This document shows positions 5,114 through 43,897 of a stretch of 48,442 bases of DNA, piece by piece (the first letter of the stretch is position 1; the number at the start of each line of letters is the position of its first letter). A program made the translations under genes and the position numbers. Source of the stretch: Thermotogota bacterium (GTDB lineage: Bacteria; Thermotogota; Thermotogae; Thermotogales; Thermotogaceae); NCBI GenBank assembly GCA_030550515.1, contig JAUQPE010000011.1:145746-194187 (forward strand), written 5' to 3'. The notes below the pieces were generated by a model. It was given only the letters and a program-made list of their open reading frames with translations, ran no database searches and was not told where the DNA came from.

Positions 5114-7310
<2,197 letters not shown>

Positions 7311-7312
7311 TC

Positions 7313-7912
7313 ATGAAAGTGCTCAGAGTGCTCCTGATCCTGAACGTTCTAATGGTGTTCACTTTGGTGATCAAACCGTTCTTCAGAGACGGCGATCTTT
7401 CCAGTTACAGTGTTGTCCCAGAAGACTACCGGATGTTCTTTCCGCCGAACGCCAGCGTTTTTCCAAAGAGACCCCCGCACAACTTGATAAGAGAATTCGA
7501 AGTACGTAACAAAAGTATTATAATAGAACCAAGGAGACCGGTTGGCGTCGTCTTGGATAACGATCACTACTATCTTTGCTCGGAAGATGGGTACCTTCTG
7601 TTTTCGATCGGAAACAAAGAGTATTTGAAAGCGTATCCCATTTTTCTCGAGGTCTTCTTGAACGGCACGAAATTTTCGCGGAAAAGTTTGGAAGTGTTGG
7701 AGAGGATAAGACCTTTGTTGGAAGAACCCATCGTTTCCGTTGTTTTTTTCGAGAGCAAGCGACTCGTGCTTTTAAAAGGGATAACCATCGACTTGGCGAG
7801 CTGGAGGGATGCGGTCGAAAATGTGAGGGTGTTGAAGGAGAAATTCCCAGAGTTGAAGCCAGGAGGAAGGTATCTGTTGACGTCGGAAGGCGTGTTGGTA
7901 GAAATGAAATGA
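7313..7912 (+). CDS. Single-pass membrane protein, candidate divergent FtsQ/DivIB
   Basis: 199 residues: a short cytoplasmic start, one hydrophobic helix (about residues 4-22) and a large extracytoplasmic part. Features recalling FtsQ are the segment around residues 65-95, where a charged strand leads into PVGVVLD and then CSEDGYLLF (compare the E-x-P-V-A ... D-x-x-G-x-x-F pattern of FtsQ). The end is also similar: an ILLKG-like strand, a helix, then LKPGGRYLLTSEGVLVE. The gene lies directly before ftsA-ftsZ, the usual place of ftsQ. The N-terminal POTRA domain is short or missing, so ordinary searches may label it hypothetical. The 5' half is more A+T rich than its neighbours. Confidence 0.55.
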   Translation: MKVLRVLLILNVLMVFTLVIKPFFRDGDLSSYSVVPEDYRMFFPPNASVFPKRPPHNLIREFEVRNKSIIIEPRRPVGVVLDNDHYYLCSEDGYLLFSIGNKEYLKAYPIFLEVFLNGTKFSRKSLEVLERIRPLLEEPIVSVVFFESKRLVLLKGITIDLASWRDAVENVRVLKEKFPELKPGGRYLLTSEGVLVEMK

Positions 7913-7924
7913 GGGGTGATAGAG

Positions 7925-9178
7925 TTGCCGAAGACGGAGACTTACACCTCGATCGATATAGGTGCCAGGTACATCAAGGGATTGGTGGTCAGGAAGCGGG
8001 AATCCGAATGGGAGATCTTGGCCCACGCCAGCGTGAAATCCCGGGGGATAGACGAGGGTGAGATAAAAGACGCCGTCGCGTTCAAAGAATCAGTGAACTT
8101 GCTCATCGAAGAGCTCAACGAGCAACTCCAGAAGGCTGTCAGGTCCGAGTTCGTGATATCGCTCACGAGTGTGGCCTTCGAGAAGAGAGACGTCGTCAGG
8201 GAGATCACTTTTGGTGGAGAAAAGAGGGTGATCACCGCGGAAGTCTTGGATGAACTGAAACGCGAAGCCTACGAAAACCTCGAGGGAGAAGGAAAAAAAG
8301 TGCTCCACCTCTACCCGAAAAGGTACGTCTTGGATGGGGAACGGGTGGTCTTCAACCCTGTGGACATGAGGGCCTCGAAGCTATCCATCGAGTACACGTC
8401 GGTGGTGCTCCCTGTCAAGGTGTACGACATGTTCTACAATTTCCTGCAGGACATCGTTTTCGGAGGGCTCCAGCTGAGGTCCTCGCTCGTGTCGGCCGCC
8501 GAAGGTGTGCTCACCTCTTCCGAGAAAGACAGAGGGGTTGTCGTGTTGGACATGGGGTACAACTTCACCGGCGTCATCGCCTACAAGAACGGCGTTCCCA
8601 TAAGGGTGGCCCACGTCCCGATAGGGATGAGACACGTTATAAGGGACGTCGCCAGCGTGTTCGACACAACCTTCGACGAAGCTGAACGCTTGGTCGTCAC
8701 GCACGGTAACGCGGTTTACGCCGATCTGAAGGAGAGCGAGGAGGTGCAGTACAAAGGACTCGACGGTAAGAGCGTCAGGAAGACCAGCATCAGAAAGTTG
8801 GCCGTTGTGATCCACGCAAGGCTAAGGGAGATCATGAACAAGTCGAAGAAGATCTTCAGGGAGATAGAGGTCGTGGTTGCCGAAGAAGGTGAGACGAGCG
8901 TACCGGGTGGTGTGGTGATCACCGGTGGGGGCGCGAAGATCCCAAGGATCACCGACCTGACGACCGAGATCTTCAAAACGCCTGTGAGGATAGGAGATTA
9001 CGCCGGTTCCGACAAACCCACGATGAAGAACGCGGACGAGGTGGCGCAAGATCCCTCCTTTGCGGCCGTGTTTGGGAACATTTTCTCTCTCGTCGAAAAC
9101 CCCTACGAAGAGCTCCCGGTGAAGCGTGAAGGTTTGTTGTGGCGCATATTCAAGTTGTTCAAGGAACTCATAGAATAG
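7925..9178 (+). CDS. ftsA: Cell division protein FtsA
   Basis: An actin-fold ATPase that tethers FtsZ to the membrane. Visible are the phosphate-1 motif (SIDIGARYIKGLV), the 1C domain, the phosphate-2 motif (VVLDMGYNFTGV), the adenosine motif (VITGGGAKIP) and a C-terminal amphipathic helix (LLWRIFKLFKELIE) that serves as membrane anchor. I place the start at TTG 7925 because GGGGTGAT (7913-7920) sits four bases before it. GTG 7916 in the same frame, three codons earlier, is possible but lies inside that ribosome-binding site. FtsZ follows 12 bases downstream. The length (about 417 residues) is normal. Confidence 0.95.
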   Translation: MPKTETYTSIDIGARYIKGLVVRKRESEWEILAHASVKSRGIDEGEIKDAVAFKESVNLLIEELNEQLQKAVRSEFVISLTSVAFEKRDVVREITFGGEKRVITAEVLDELKREAYENLEGEGKKVLHLYPKRYVLDGERVVFNPVDMRASKLSIEYTSVVLPVKVYDMFYNFLQDIVFGGLQLRSSLVSAAEGVLTSSEKDRGVVVLDMGYNFTGVIAYKNGVPIRVAHVPIGMRHVIRDVASVFDTTFDEAERLVVTHGNAVYADLKESEEVQYKGLDGKSVRKTSIRKLAVVIHARLREIMNKSKKIFREIEVVVAEEGETSVPGGVVITGGGAKIPRITDLTTEIFKTPVRIGDYAGSDKPTMKNADEVAQDPSFAAVFGNIFSLVENPYEELPVKREGLLWRIFKLFKELIE

Positions 9179-9190
9179 GGGGTAACGAAG

Positions 9191-10246
9191 ATGGGGTTCG
9201 ACCTCGACGTTGAACAGAGGAGAGAAGGCAGGAACATACCTGAGGCGAAGAACCTGAAAATAAAGGTGATCGGCGTCGGTGGTGCGGGAAACAACGCCAT
9301 AAACAGGATGGTCGAGATGGGCATACACGGTGTGGAGTTCGTCGCCGTGAACACCGACCTTCAGGTCTTGGAAGTTTCCAAGGCGGACGCGAAGGTCCAG
9401 ATCGGCGAGAACCTCACCAGAGGATTGGGAGCGGGGGGCGATCCCAGAAAGGGAGAGCAGGCAGCGCTCGAGAGCGAAGAAAAGATAAGGGAAGTTTTGG
9501 AAGGCACGCACATGGTGTTCATAACGGCGGGTTTCGGGGGCGGAACGGGTACAGGCGCGTCTCCCGTCATCGCCAAGATAGCGAAGGAGATGGGTATCCT
9601 CACCATAGCCATAGTGACCACGCCGTTCTACTTCGAGGGGACCGCGCGACTCAGGATAGCCATAGAGGGTTTGAAGAAGATCAGGAACCACGTGGACACC
9701 CTCATAAAGATCTCGAACAACAAACTGTTGGAAGAGCTTCCCAAAGACGTTCAGGTGATAGACGCCTTCCTGAAAGCCGACGAAACACTCCACCAAGGCG
9801 TCAAAGGCATATCCGAGCTCATCACCAAGAGGGGCTACATAAACCTCGACTTCGCCGACATAGAGTCCGTCATGAAGGACGCGGGAGCGGCCATTCTCGG
9901 CATAGGTATAGGTAAAGGGCCAAACAGGGCCCAAGAGGCGGCGAGAAAGGCGATGGAGAGCAAGCTCATAGAACATCCCATCGAAAACGCGAACTCCATC
10001 ATCCTGAACATCTCCGCCCCGAAGAACATCAGGATGGACGAAGTTCACCAAGCGGCGATGATCGTCAGGCAGAACAGCAGCGAGGACGCGGACGTCAAGT
10101 TCGGGCTCATCTTCGACGAGGCCATGCCGGAAGACGAGATGAAGGTGATCCTGATCGCCACTCGCTTTCCAGACGAGGAGAAGATACTGTTCCCGGAGGG
10201 TGACATCCCGGCCATCTACAGGTACGGCTTGGAGGGACTCCTGTAA
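9191..10246 (+). CDS. ftsZ: Cell division GTPase FtsZ
   Basis: 351 residues. The tubulin-like GTPase domain has the G-box [10 protein letters not shown] at about residue 116, the T7 synergy loop region ([11 protein letters not shown]) and a complete C-terminal domain. The tail is short and ends in the conserved peptide [14 protein letters not shown], the docking site for FtsA and other partners, with almost no disordered linker. This is normal for Thermotoga. The stop codon TAA shares its last A with the ATG of the pilB-like gene (TAATG, 10244-10248), so the division genes and the pilus-type ATPase are translated from one message. Confidence 0.97.
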
Positions 10247-11946
10247 TGTTGAAGAGGTACAAGAAGCTCGGAGAGCTCTTGCTGGAGAAAGGTTTCATAA
10301 CTGAAAGCGAGTTGGAAAGGGCCTTGGAGATCCAAAAGCAAACCAGGAAACCGCTGGGAGAGGTTTTGTTGGAATTGGGATACGTCACGGAAGACGAGAT
10401 TTTGGACGCCCTCAGCGAGCAGTACGGCGCCCCTATTTTGAAGAACCTACCGAAGAACATCCCGCTGAACGTGATAGGATCTTTGCCGAAGAACATGGTC
10501 GAAACCCTCAGGGTCATACCCATAGAGAAGAAAGAGGACGGAACCCTCGTGGTCGTCACCGACAACGGTGTAAACATACCCCGTATCAGACAGGAGATCA
10601 GGTTCCTCACCGGCAAGATGCCCGAGGTGTACCTCGTCACCTCCAGGGACTTCTCCCTCCTCTACCAGACGCACGTACTCGGAGTGCCCCTCGACCTCTT
10701 CGAGGAACCCTACGTGGTGATGGAGGAAACCCCGGTGGAGCAGGAAACGAAGGAAGAGACGGAGGTCGAGGCGGAAGAGGCTCCCATAGTGAGGCTCGTG
10801 AACAACATCATAAACAGGGCCATAGAGATGGGCGCGAGCGACATCCACATAGAACCTTTCAAGAGGAGCGTCAAGGTGAGGTTCAGGATAGACGGCATGT
10901 TGAGGAAGATCCTGGAGTACCAGAAAGCCCAGCACGGTGCGGTCGTGGCGAGGATAAAGATCATGAGCAACCTGGACGTCTCGGAGAGGAGACTCCCACA
11001 AGACGGCAAATTCTACACCATAAAGAACGGCGAGCAGTACGACTTCCGCGTGTCCACGATGCCATCGGCGTTCGGCGAAAAGGTCGTTCTGAGGATCCTG
11101 AAGGTCTCAGAGGCGAACAGGAGGCTGGAGGAACTTGGATACAGCGATTACAATTACAACCGCATCATGGAACTCCTGAGGAAACCCTACGGCATCATCT
11201 TGGTGACGGGACCGACGGGTAGCGGTAAATCGACCACGTTGGTGGCCATGATAAACTACCTCAAAGACGAATCGGTCAACATCATCACCGCCGAAGACCC
11301 GATCGAGTACACGATAGAGGGCGTGACGCAGTGTCAGGTGTTTCCAGAGATAGGTCTCACCTTCGCCAGGTACCTGCGCGCGTTCTTGAGGCAAGACCCG
11401 GACATCATAATGGTCGGCGAGATCAGGGACAGGGAGACCGCCCAACTCGCCGTCGAAGCATCGCTCACGGGGCACTTGGTGTTGAGCACACTCCACACCA
11501 ACACCGCCGCCGGAGCCGTCACCAGGCTCGTGGAGATGGGTGTGGACCCACACCTCCTGGGCACGTCGCTCCTCGGCGTCATAGGTCAAAGGCTGGTGAG
11601 GAGGCTCTGCGAGAAGTGCAAAGTACCCACCCCAATCGAGGATAAGAAAATCGCGGAGCACTTTGAGAGGCACTTCGGTTACGTCCCCGAAAGGATCTTC
11701 GCTCCCTCCCCCGAAGGGTGTCCGGAGTGTCGCGGGATGAAGTACAGGGGAAGGATGGCCATAGGAGAGGTTCTGATAGTGAGCAGCGAGATAAAGAGAC
11801 TGTTGTCGAGCAGGGCGACCGAGCAGGACATTTTCGAGGTCGCGGTCAGAGAGGGCATGAGACCTATGTTTGTGGACGGCCTCGAGAAAGTCGCCCAAGG
11901 CCTGACCAGCTTCGAAGAGGTCCTGAGGGTGGTTTCTCCGTTGTGA
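10246..11946 (+). CDS. pilB: PilB/GspE-type secretion ATPase
   Basis: 566 residues. An MshEN-type N-terminal domain (about 1-150, starting with GELLLEKGFITESELERAL) is followed by an acidic linker and the N2/C domains. The C domain has Walker A GPTGSGKST (about 321-329), the Asp box, Walker B (IIMVGEIRD), the His box (LVLSTLHTNTA) and two CxxC pairs (CEKC and CPEC) that hold zinc in extension ATPases. Such hexamers drive type IV pilus or type II secretion assembly. No PilC, pilin or secretin gene lies beside it. It overlaps ftsZ by one base and the next gene by four (GTGA). Confidence 0.9.
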   Translation: MLKRYKKLGELLLEKGFITESELERALEIQKQTRKPLGEVLLELGYVTEDEILDALSEQYGAPILKNLPKNIPLNVIGSLPKNMVETLRVIPIEKKEDGTLVVVTDNGVNIPRIRQEIRFLTGKMPEVYLVTSRDFSLLYQTHVLGVPLDLFEEPYVVMEETPVEQETKEETEVEAEEAPIVRLVNNIINRAIEMGASDIHIEPFKRSVKVRFRIDGMLRKILEYQKAQHGAVVARIKIMSNLDVSERRLPQDGKFYTIKNGEQYDFRVSTMPSAFGEKVVLRILKVSEANRRLEELGYSDYNYNRIMELLRKPYGIILVTGPTGSGKSTTLVAMINYLKDESVNIITAEDPIEYTIEGVTQCQVFPEIGLTFARYLRAFLRQDPDIIMVGEIRDRETAQLAVEASLTGHLVLSTLHTNTAAGAVTRLVEMGVDPHLLGTSLLGVIGQRLVRRLCEKCKVPTPIEDKKIAEHFERHFGYVPERIFAPSPEGCPECRGMKYRGRMAIGEVLIVSSEIKRLLSSRATEQDIFEVAVREGMRPMFVDGLEKVAQGLTSFEEVLRVVSPL

Positions 11947-13157: not shown

Positions 13158-14225
13158 ATTCCGCTGGAGAACAAGAGGGTGGACTGGTTTTTCCTATCGC
13201 TCGTCGCCGTCTTGATGTTCTACGGACTGTTCGTGTTGAGGAGCGCCGTTTTGGGCGAGGCGGAGGGCCTTTTCGTGAGGCAGGTCTTCTGGAACGTGAT
13301 GGGCTTCTCTCTGATGGTCTCGATGCTGTTCGTTCGCGAGGACACGGTGAAGAGGTTCTCGAAGCTGTTGTACGTCCTCGCCTTGGCGTTCCTCGTCGCG
13401 GTGCTCTTCGTGGGAACGGAGGTGGGGGGATCCAGGAGGTGGATCAGGACTCCCGTCGGAGGGTTTCAACCTTCGGATTTGGCGAAACTCGCCCTCATAG
13501 TTCTGTTGCCGGAAGTGTTGACGGAGGGGAGATTCTGGCTCAGCTTGATCTTGGCGACTGTACCGACCGCTTTGGTCTTCGTCGAGCCGGACCTTGGAAC
13601 GTCCGTCGCTTTGATCGTCGTGTGGTTCTTCGCAGTTTTGGCGTCGCGAGTGAGGAAGAAGCCTCTCTGGATTCTGCTTCTTTTGTGCGTCGCGTTCTTT
13701 CCAATTTTCTTCTTCTTCGGCCTGAAGGATTACCAAAGGGTGAGGATCCTCGCCTTCTTGGAACCCGAAAAGTACGGCAAGACCTACTCTTACAACGTCA
13801 TACAGTCCATGAGAGCGATCGGCTCGGGAGGCTTGTTCGGGAAGGGTTACATGCGCGGCACCGCGAACCTGATGGGGCTTGTACCCATCGCGCACACGGA
13901 TTTCATCGTGTCGGTGATAGGAGAGGAGTTCGGCTTTTTGGGGATTCTGTTCACCGTTTCGCTGTACTCTCTTCTGCTCTTCAGGATCGCCCGATGGCTT
14001 CCCCACGTGAAGAGCGAGTACTGGGAGATCCTCATGGTGTCCGCCTCGTCTCTCCTGTGGTTCCACGTTCTGGAGAACGTTTCGATGTGTCTTGGTTTGC
14101 TCCCCGTCACGGGCATACCTTTACCCTTCGTGAGCTACGGTGGAAGCTCCACCCTCACCTTCTCCATCATCATGGGCCTCGTCCTAAAAGGCATCGCGAT
14201 CGCGCATATAGAGAGAAAAGAATGA
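13158..14225 (+). CDS. FtsW/RodA-family peptidoglycan polymerase (SEDS)
   Basis: A polytopic SEDS protein with about ten membrane helices. Conserved elements include GSRRWIR after helix 4, the EPDLGTS motif with the catalytic-type Asp, the GKGY-x-RGT loop and the C-terminal GIPLPFVSYGGSS motif. It polymerises lipid II glycan chains with a class B PBP partner. Whether it is FtsW (division) or RodA (elongation) is uncertain; the ftsAZ context favours division. The start is unusual: no ATG, GTG or TTG lies between the in-frame stop (13146-13148) and GTG 13179, yet the family normally has residues before the DW that opens helix 1. GAGGTGG (13147-13153) points to ATT 13158; GTG 13179 is the conservative choice. 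Confidence 0.9.
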   Translation: MPLENKRVDWFFLSLVAVLMFYGLFVLRSAVLGEAEGLFVRQVFWNVMGFSLMVSMLFVREDTVKRFSKLLYVLALAFLVAVLFVGTEVGGSRRWIRTPVGGFQPSDLAKLALIVLLPEVLTEGRFWLSLILATVPTALVFVEPDLGTSVALIVVWFFAVLASRVRKKPLWILLLLCVAFFPIFFFFGLKDYQRVRILAFLEPEKYGKTYSYNVIQSMRAIGSGGLFGKGYMRGTANLMGLVPIAHTDFIVSVIGEEFGFLGILFTVSLYSLLLFRIARWLPHVKSEYWEILMVSASSLLWFHVLENVSMCLGLLPVTGIPLPFVSYGGSSTLTFSIIMGLVLKGIAIAHIERKE

Positions 14226-41180: not shown

Positions 41181-42131
41181 ATGTTCTTCGAAGTGGACGT
41201 ACCGAAAAGATTCGAGATCAAGGACAGGTACGACATCGTGGTGATCGGCGGGGGTCCCGCAGGCTTGACCGCGGCGATCTACGCCAGAAGAGCAGGGCTC
41301 TCGGTCTTGGTCGTGGAAAAGACGCTGGAGGGTGGCTACGTGAACTTCACCCACCTCGTCGAGAACTACCCCGGTTTTCCCAAGATAAAGGGTGAAGAGC
41401 TCGCCTCTCGCTTCAAAGAGCACGCGGAGAGCTTTGGGGCGGAGTTCGTCAACGCTGAGGCGATCAAACTAGAAGTGAAAGCTGACAAGAAGATCGTGGA
41501 GCTCGACAACGGGAAGAAGGTGGAAGCGCCCGTCGTGATCGTCGCCACCGGCGCCAACCCGAAGCGCCTGAACGTGCCTGGCGAGAAGGAGTTCTTCGGA
41601 CGGGGAGTTTCTTACTGCGCCACCTGTGACGGTTACCTGTTTTCCGGGAAGGACATCGTGATCGTCGGTGGAGGGGACAGCGCCTGCGACGAGGCGATGT
41701 TTTTGGTCAACTTGGTGAACAGGATAACGATGGTCCAGCTCCTCGAGACGCTCACCGCGGCAAAGGTGCTCCAAGACAGGGTCTTGAGCCATCCGAAGAT
41801 CGAGGTGATCTACAACTCCACGGTGAAGGAGATCAGAGGGAAAGAGAAGGTCGAAGAGGTGTTGGTGGAGAACGTCAAGACGGGTGAGCGAAAGGTCCTG
41901 AAGACCGACGGGGTCTTCATATTCATCGGTTTGAACCCCAACTCCAAACTCGTTGAAGGTCTCGTGGAAATCGACCCATACGGTTACATCGTGACGGACG
42001 AGAACATGGAAACCAGCGTCAAAGGCTTGTACGCGATAGGCGACGTCAGAAGGAAGAACTTGAGGCAGATCGTGACGGCAGTCGCGGATGGCGCGATAGC
42101 GGTCGAGCACGCGGCGAAACACTACTTCTGA
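41181..42131 (+). CDS. trxB: Thioredoxin reductase
   Basis: 316 residues from ATG 41181, five bases after GAGGGGTGA. The FAD-binding GGGPAGLTAA motif is followed by the NAD(P)H-binding GGGDSACDEA motif, with the redox pair Cys146/Cys149 (CATC) between them and a final IGDVR FAD motif. It passes electrons to the double-CxxC protein upstream. The NAD(P) loop after GGGDSA lacks the usual HRR-type pattern (here TMVQLLET), so NADPH preference is not certain. It converges with and overlaps the PBP gene by 10 bases. Confidence 0.94.
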   Translation: MFFEVDVPKRFEIKDRYDIVVIGGGPAGLTAAIYARRAGLSVLVVEKTLEGGYVNFTHLVENYPGFPKIKGEELASRFKEHAESFGAEFVNAEAIKLEVKADKKIVELDNGKKVEAPVVIVATGANPKRLNVPGEKEFFGRGVSYCATCDGYLFSGKDIVIVGGGDSACDEAMFLVNLVNRITMVQLLETLTAAKVLQDRVLSHPKIEVIYNSTVKEIRGKEKVEEVLVENVKTGERKVLKTDGVFIFIGLNPNSKLVEGLVEIDPYGYIVTDENMETSVKGLYAIGDVRRKNLRQIVTAVADGAIAVEHAAKHYF

Positions 42132-43897
42132 AGGTAGAGGACCACTCTACCTTCCAAGATGGGTTCGAACGGGGATGGCGATTGGTCCCGCACCAGCCAT
42201 CCCTTTCCTTTCGTCTCCACGTCCTTGACACCCATCTCTTCCAGGACGAGCAGCGCATCCCTCAGGGAGAGTCCCCTCAGGTCGGGCATCAGGCCCTTTG
42301 GGACGGTGATCATCCTCGCCTGTTTCCTCTCCCTTTCGAGCAGCACTTTCGCGATCTGCGCGAAAATCGGCGCCGCCACGTCTCCACCGTAGTACAATCC
42401 CTTCGGCGCGTCCACGTGGACGAGGATGGTGTAGCGCGGGTTGTCCGCCGGGAAGAAACCCACGAAAATCGAGTGGTACACATCCGCGTACCTTCCACCG
42501 ATCGCCTTCTGGGCGGTTCCGGTCTTTCCGGCGACGGAGAAACCCTCGAGTCGCGCCATCCTGCCCGTTCCCTCTTCCACCACCTTCACCATCGCGTCCC
42601 TTACGATCTGGGCGGTCTTGGCGGAGATCACCCTCTTCTTCGAAGGGGTCTGGTCTTTGAGAAGGGTTGGTCTCACGTACTCTCCATCGTTTGCGAACAC
42701 GTTCAGCGCCGCCACAAGTTGAATTGGAGTCACCCCGATCCCTTGACCGATCGACACGGTCGCGAAGTCCAAAAGCGACCACTCTCTCGGTTTCCTCAAC
42801 ACCCCCTTAATCTCGCCCGCAAACTCCACGCCAGTTTTCTCGCCAAATCCGAAGTTTCTGAGCCAAGCGTAGAAACCTTCTACGCCTATCTTCTCGACGA
42901 TCTTCCTACCGACCTCCACGCTCATCACGTTGCAGGATTTCACGATACCGTTCAAGAAATCGATCTCCCCGTGGGCTTCGACGTCTCGTATGATGTTGGG
43001 GAGTTTGTCGACGGGCTTTACCCTTCCCCGACAGACGAGGGAAAAGTTCGTCCTGACGGCTCCAGTCTCGAGGGCGATGGCGTAAACGATGGGCTTCATG
43101 GTGGATCCCGGTTCTATGTAACCGCAGGCGAGGTCGTTCCAGCCCTTGAGCGTCACGAGGGAAAGGATTCTTCCCGTTTTTGATTCCATCACGACGACGT
43201 GACCGTTCTCGGCGGACAAGCTCTCGACTGACTTCTTCAGGATCTCGTAGGTGGTTCTCTGAAGGTCCAAATCCAACGAGAGTTGCACGTCCTCGCCGTC
43301 GGAAGGTCTTTGGTAATCCACCAAGACGGGAGAAAGCCTCATGGAACCCTTGTACGCCAACCTCACGAACCCTTTCTTGCCGTTGGAAAGTTGGGTGTCG
43401 AAGAACCCTTCCAACCCTCCGGAACCTCTCCCGTCCAGGACGCTACCCAAGATGGGAGAGAGGCCGTAATCGGTGAGCTTTCTCCTTCTGGTCTCGTAAG
43501 AGATGTTCACGTAAGGGAGGAGATCGCTTTCTATCCTTTTGAGGACTTCTTCCCTACTTTCCGATTCATAGAGCTTGAAAAACCTGTAATTTTTGAGAAT
43601 CTCGTCGGCCTTTCTGTCCACACCGCAGTTCTTCAGGGTTTTCTCCAGAGCGGTGAGGTTTTTCGAGTGCTTCCTGAAAAAACCGACGTCCAAGTAAGCC
43701 ACGTGAACGTAGACGTCATAGGAGAGCTTTCTTCCCTTGCCGTCCAGTATGCTCCCCCTTCTTGGAGGGATCGTCACCCTCCAGGTGGGTCCCACACCCC
43801 CTTCCGGGAAGAAGAGGATGTTGACAAAAGAGATCAGCAGGTATACCCCAAAAACCAAGAGAAGGTAGTTAAGTCTTCTCATCCAACATCCGTTCAC
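42122..43897 (-). CDS. ftsI: Class B penicillin-binding protein, FtsI-like, with PASTA domain
   Basis: 591 residues. One membrane helix (about 10-30) is followed by a dimerisation domain starting IPPRRGSILDGKG. The transpeptidase domain has Ser265 in GSTMKP, SCN and the KTGTAQK motif. One PASTA domain ends the protein (about 535-591). It cross-links septal peptidoglycan with a FtsW-type partner such as the protein at 13158. The order rsmH-ftsL-ftsI is the classical dcw start. The GTG at 43897 overlaps the ftsL stop (GTGA); ATG 43882 is an alternative, and neither has a good ribosome-binding site. The stop overlaps trxB. Confidence 0.93.
   Translation of the reverse strand: MNGCWMRRLNYLLLVFGVYLLISFVNILFFPEGGVGPTWRVTIPPRRGSILDGKGRKLSYDVYVHVAYLDVGFFRKHSKNLTALEKTLKNCGVDRKADEILKNYRFFKLYESESREEVLKRIESDLLPYVNISYETRRRKLTDYGLSPILGSVLDGRGSGGLEGFFDTQLSNGKKGFVRLAYKGSMRLSPVLVDYQRPSDGEDVQLSLDLDLQRTTYEILKKSVESLSAENGHVVVMESKTGRILSLVTLKGWNDLACGYIEPGSTMKPIVYAIALETGAVRTNFSLVCRGRVKPVDKLPNIIRDVEAHGEIDFLNGIVKSCNVMSVEVGRKIVEKIGVEGFYAWLRNFGFGEKTGVEFAGEIKGVLRKPREWSLLDFATVSIGQGIGVTPIQLVAALNVFANDGEYVRPTLLKDQTPSKKRVISAKTAQIVRDAMVKVVEEGTGRMARLEGFSVAGKTGTAQKAIGGRYADVYHSIFVGFFPADNPRYTILVHVDAPKGLYYGGDVAAPIFAQIAKVLLERERKQARMITVPKGLMPDLRGLSLRDALLVLEEMGVKDVETKGKGWLVRDQSPSPFEPILEGRVVLYLQK

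Follow-up and report, generated by a model that had tools for sequence, protein, structure and literature searches.

A DUF4894 protein encoded between gyrB and ftsA is very probably the FtsQ/DivIB of Thermotogota, with its POTRA domain reduced to a linker

FtsQ is a hub of the division machine, and its contact with FtsB and FtsL is a drug target in bacteria other than the Thermotogota, a phylum whose divisome has looked incomplete because no FtsQ had been recognised there. In DivIB, of the same family, there is a C-terminal tail in addition to a POTRA domain. In the FtsWIQBL complex of P. aeruginosa, it is the beta domain of FtsQ, together with FtsB, that tethers FtsQ, and the sheet is completed by FtsL; the POTRA domain and membrane helix of FtsQ are flexible, and FtsK is predicted to dock on the POTRA domain (PMC7614612). 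For E. coli, FtsB binding maps to the beta domain around Y248, and a hot spot on the POTRA side, around R75, is mainly in contact with FtsL (PMC6134095). A 2022 study recognised ftsQ in many genomes by its position, 'just before ftsA', and left the Thermotogae out of its tree (PMC8871954).

We analysed a window (the whole stretch of DNA under study) of 48,442 nucleotides from a Thermotogota bacterium, in which an earlier sequence-only reading had placed a cryptic FtsQ/DivIB between gyrB and ftsA. A real gene does sit there, namely an ORF for 199 aa with an ATG start, lying 2 bases downstream of the gyrB stop (7310) and 3 bases upstream of the ftsA start (7916). The features of this locus are as follows:

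5388..7310, + strand: gyrB, the upstream neighbour, kept in most families (ORF and tblastn synteny)
7313..7912, + strand: ftsQ (PF16235/DUF4894), very probably a shortened FtsQ/DivIB, 199 aa (ORF, Pfam, Foldseek)
7316..7384, + strand: single N-terminal transmembrane helix, residues 2-24 (model helix and hydropathy)
7385..7507, + strand: short linker, residues 25-65, at the position of POTRA in full-length FtsQ and too short for a POTRA domain (spacer length; low model confidence there)
7508..7909, + strand: very probable FtsQ/DivIB beta domain (DUF4894), residues 66-199 (Foldseek ranks 1-4, PF16235, in-register profile alignment)
7916..9178, + strand: ftsA (PF14450, E 3.1e-25; SHS2, E 3.7e-10)
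9191..10246, + strand: ftsZ (PF00091, E 1.9e-51; PF12327, E 3e-20)
10246-11946: pilB-like gene, 3' of ftsZ

The 199-aa protein matched PF16235 (DUF4894) in Pfam over residues 80-197 (E 2e-23; 83.5 bits against a cut-off of 28), and a profile of its family matched 81 of 103 Thermotogota genomes, so that the ORF is a conserved gene and not a chance one. The DUF4894 family spans the Thermotogota; of 14 control genomes, the only one to contain it was that of Thermotoga maritima, and a search of viral contigs found no relatives of the gene. The gene is cryptic in the sense that its Pfam entry carries no function, not in the sense of being new to databases, and the literature searched made no mention of DUF4894. 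The protein matched neither PF03799 (FtsQ_DivIB_C) nor any other FtsQ model of Pfam and NCBIfam, nor any PDB sequence, and profile searches of the PDB with the family alignments, including the 18-protein set used below, returned nothing relevant.

The topology that had been proposed was recovered: a single hydrophobic helix at the N-terminus, whose best 19-residue window averages 2.39 on the Kyte-Doolittle scale, precedes a beta-rich part. Both quoted motifs are present (EPRRPVGVV, residues 72-80; DGYLLF, residues 92-97). The helix is general to the family, the best 19-residue window near the N-terminus averaging at least 1.48 in all 66 members, and the protein would be bitopic with its beta-rich part outside.

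Structures were predicted from a three-sequence alignment. The AF2 model of residues 66-199 was of modest confidence (mean pLDDT 68.9, pTM 0.58), with block means of 86-93 in pLDDT across the last ~45 residues, and its elements run in the order of four strands, a helix, three strands, a helix and two strands. When this domain model was searched with Foldseek against 350,542 PDB chains, ranks 1-4 were all FtsQ/DivIB (probability 0.75-0.99, TM-scores by query 0.39-0.56) and not some different fold: FtsQ of the P. aeruginosa FtsWIQBL complex (8bh1_C; probability 0.99, with the best E-value, 0.0038), FtsQ (2vh2; 0.93), FtsQ in complex with FtsB (6h9o; 0.84) and, at rank 2, DivIB (1yr1; 0.75). Among the best 50 matches listed, the highest probability outside FtsQ/DivIB was 0.11. 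Taken by themselves the E-values are modest, and the strong argument for an FtsQ-type beta domain, given a model of this confidence, is that the four leading matches all belong to one family. The full-length model (pLDDT 52.7), for which FtsQ was absent among the Foldseek matches listed, was counted neither for nor against this assignment, being of low confidence and giving no useful match.

Like FtsQ of E. coli, Yersinia and P. aeruginosa (2vh1/2vh2, 6h9o, 8bh1), the window protein has one N-terminal helix and a beta domain and is encoded directly before ftsA-ftsZ; unlike them, it carries a 49-residue linker in place of POTRA and matches no FtsQ sequence model. With DivIB (1yr1) it shares the predicted beta-domain fold, whereas the POTRA domain and C-terminal tail of DivIB are not seen in it.

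Relatives of the protein bridge the distance to FtsQ. In two proteins of 248-250 aa from family f7 (P0002 and P0003; loci L094 and L095), a POTRA_1 domain, labelled by Pfam as 'POTRA domain, FtsQ-type', is followed by DUF4894 in one chain. For POTRA_1 the E-values are 1.2e-4 and 1.3e-3, both matches falling narrowly short of the cut-off for whole proteins, and for DUF4894 they are 7.4e-5 and 1.2e-5, respectively. In a protein of family f10 (P0005, L101), DUF4894 (E 1.1e-7) and FtsQ_DivIB_C (E 0.0027; 19 bits, cut-off 21) cover the same residues. We aligned the family by hhalign with a reference profile of 10 proteobacterial FtsQ proteins: a set of 18 Thermotogota proteins, full-length ones included, scored 44.4 (p 9.8e-6) in register over POTRA and the start of the beta domain, and the 66-sequence family scored 27.1 in register over the beta domain, compared to 18.7 and 15.3, respectively, for the best of 150 column-shuffled decoys and 13.9 and 10.8 for reversed controls. 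With the membrane helix removed the score was still 34.7, against 17.9 for the best of 60 decoys, which shows that more than a common hydrophobic helix underlies the signal; the beta domain alone scored 20.4-22.0 against at most 16.8 in 60 decoys, a modest margin (p ~0.01). Profile alignment also suggests that the POTRA-length region of family f5 is an FtsQ-type POTRA. Scattered, weak matches of relatives to Methylase_S and PorZ were discarded.

These data bear on whether the gene might encode a bitopic protein, specific to Thermotogota and unrelated in fold, that happens to occupy the ftsQ site, its likeness to FtsQ being the convergence of beta-rich sequences. The window protein alone does match only a DUF, and sequence identity is low throughout, as such a protein would have it; the POTRA_1-DUF4894 fusion at the canonical ftsQ site, the in-register alignment scoring above every decoy and the four FtsQ/DivIB chains leading the fold search speak against it, and we consider it very unlikely. 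DUF4894 is very probably the FtsQ/DivIB beta domain, and a corresponding function would follow.

Gene order was compared across the phylum. In ~65 genomes from ten families, the ftsQ-like gene (X) is the immediate upstream neighbour of ftsA, in the same orientation. It is itself directly preceded by gyrB except in f3 (14 genomes) and f7 (2 genomes), and the gyrB-X-ftsA order is conserved over most of the Thermotogota. In f7 the order is murC-murB-X-ftsA-ftsZ-pilB, with X the DUF4894 gene (Mur ligase and MurB identified by Pfam), which is the classical ftsQ site, murC-murB-(ddl)-ftsQ-ftsA-ftsZ, as in E. coli; since f7 keeps it, the gyrB-ftsQ order of the other Thermotogota is probably derived. 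The exception to the position upstream of ftsA is f5 (9 genomes). There the ftsQ-like gene, which encodes a POTRA-length region, has its place downstream of gyrB, and ftsA-ftsZ follow a tmk-like gene in the 3 genomes looked at; loci with the two apart are L117-L124, L156, L157 and L161. Five profile-negative genomes of f9 hold a gene of 154-162 aa between gyrB and ftsA with one hydrophobic N-terminal stretch, assigned by position and pattern only. Records of 2-5 Mb that carry ftsQ and are filed as plasmids (for example NZ_OL790811.1, NZ_AP026896.1 and NZ_CP119142.1) are evidently chromosomes.

The neighbourhood invites one more comparison, since FtsA resembles PilM and the pilB-like gene follows ftsZ in most families, as might be expected if the protein were a PilN/PilO-like component of the type IV pilus in the inner membrane. 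The window protein has no PilN/PilO match, and the 25 families listed for its relatives include none; moreover, the gene precedes ftsA, stays with gyrB far from ftsA-ftsZ in f5, and gives FtsQ in the fold search. On these grounds a PilN/PilO identity, which we regard as barely conceivable, was rejected.

No clear FtsQ was found elsewhere, either in the window's own genome or in the 103 Thermotogota genomes, none of which has a PF03799 match over cut-off; the same model did match the controls E. coli, B. subtilis, Caulobacter, Bacteroides and Lactococcus. The only POTRA_1 match in the window's own genome is weak (E 0.109) and lies within a 730-aa frame.

To compare POTRA regions, we measured the spacer that separates the membrane helix from the column of the 'ER' strand, which is 79 residues long in E. 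coli FtsQ and 49 in the window protein. Across the families its length is:

early branches: f4, 69-92; f5, 66; f6, 64; f7, 69-73; f10, 70
f11, 52-57; nearest f1 relatives of the window protein, 31-32
rest of f1, f2, f3, f8 and f9, 8-21

The proposal of little or no POTRA is thus borne out against both E. coli FtsQ and the early-branching relatives, and the 49-residue spacer, together with the absence of a POTRA_1 match in Pfam, marks the 199-aa protein as a shortened orthologue and not a full-length FtsQ. As the spacer falls from 64-92 to 49, to 32 in Thermotoga-type relatives and, in several families, to ~10 residues, POTRA appears to have been eroded or lost. In an FtsA tree rooted on E. coli, a provisional rooting given the very long E. 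coli root branch and some open deep forks, long-spacer forms branch first and the spacer classes (long, middle, none) require 3 changes; on this reading the short spacer reflects loss of POTRA within the lineage and not its primitive absence. This reduction is the new part of the finding.

Candidate partners of the protein are encoded in the window and elsewhere in the genome:

43894..44118, - strand: ftsL-like gene, 74 aa, between rsmH and ftsI, the classical ftsL site (PF04999 the best family, E 0.015, below cut-off)
42122..43897, - strand: ftsI (class B PBP) with C-terminal PASTA (PF00905, E 4.6e-68; PASTA, E 1.6e-6)
13194..14189, + strand: FtsW/RodA-family SEDS protein, one of two in the genome (PF01098, E 9.6e-78; G000:C27:158939-159934)
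G000:C8:38172-39233: second FtsW/RodA-family gene
L145:2183-2491, own genome G000:C22, - strand: candidate FtsB/DivIC, 102 aa (position and relatives' DivIC matches)

The FtsL-like gene and FtsI are both as the sequence-only reading had described them. The candidate FtsB has one hydrophobic stretch and a likely coiled-coil, and is flanked by an hslU-like gene and an RsmJ-like methyltransferase gene; its relatives at the same place match PF04977 (DivIC) at E 1.6e-6 to 6.8e-5, under cut-off. A genome scan with PF04977 was by itself uninformative, giving weak coiled-coil matches everywhere; the one candidate taken forward was this conserved small gene next to the methyltransferase gene.

Taken together, these results make us highly confident that the window gene is the ftsQ of Thermotogota, its product a bitopic inner-membrane protein with an FtsQ/DivIB beta domain outside and POTRA eroded to a linker. 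Its fold, the bridge proteins and its position point to an orthologue of FtsQ/DivIB; given that it has neither POTRA nor a match to the FtsQ models of Pfam, it is best called a shortened FtsQ. By analogy with the FtsQ-FtsB and FtsWIQBL complexes, the beta domain would bind an FtsB/DivIC-type protein at the latter's C-terminal part and FtsL at its end strand, and could hold FtsB-FtsL against FtsW-FtsI, from which control of septal peptidoglycan synthesis at the FtsA/FtsZ ring would follow. As the beta domain carries the FtsB tether and POTRA is flexible, an FtsQ consisting of the beta domain could still hold FtsB-FtsL, and we lean towards the view that in most Thermotogota this domain, carried on a short stalk, suffices for the role of FtsQ. 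We infer a septal location and essentiality for the product, and the role of POTRA may have been lost or taken over by other proteins.

DUF4894 could also descend from FtsQ and have lost the job, serving as a lineage-specific FtsA/FtsZ accessory with a drifted beta-domain surface, while FtsB-FtsL-FtsWI is activated without FtsQ. A POTRA region of some ten residues in several families and a sequence drift so large that most DUF4894 members miss every FtsQ model would agree with this, as would the Y248 site, which is not obviously kept: it has no certain counterpart in the 199-aa protein, where T190/S191 would face it in a hand alignment. The part retained is nevertheless the beta domain, which binds FtsB and FtsL in solved complexes (PMC7614612, PMC6134095), W164, G93, G156 and G193 are nearly invariant within it (32-sequence alignment), and FtsL-like and DivIC-like candidates persist. 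We hold such a loss of function to be unlikely and retain the assignment as a working FtsQ.

Assigning DUF4894 to FtsQ fills the divisome gap for most of the phylum, and the natural series from full-length to beta-domain-only FtsQ makes the need for POTRA directly testable. The proteins are small and probably heat-stable, which would suit structural work on the FtsQ-FtsB-FtsL contact.

The FtsK 4TM membrane domain was recognised in none of 61 Thermotogota genomes, those of POTRA-bearing families included, a result that is not proof of absence since the same model also misses B. subtilis. It is consistent with a lost docking role of POTRA, and a POTRA-less FtsQ would then be recruited via FtsL/FtsB or by another route. 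In the window, the FtsW/RodA-family gene lies near the ftsA-ftsZ-pilB cluster, and the C-terminal PASTA domain of the FtsI-type PBP is a feature also found in some Gram-positive bacteria.
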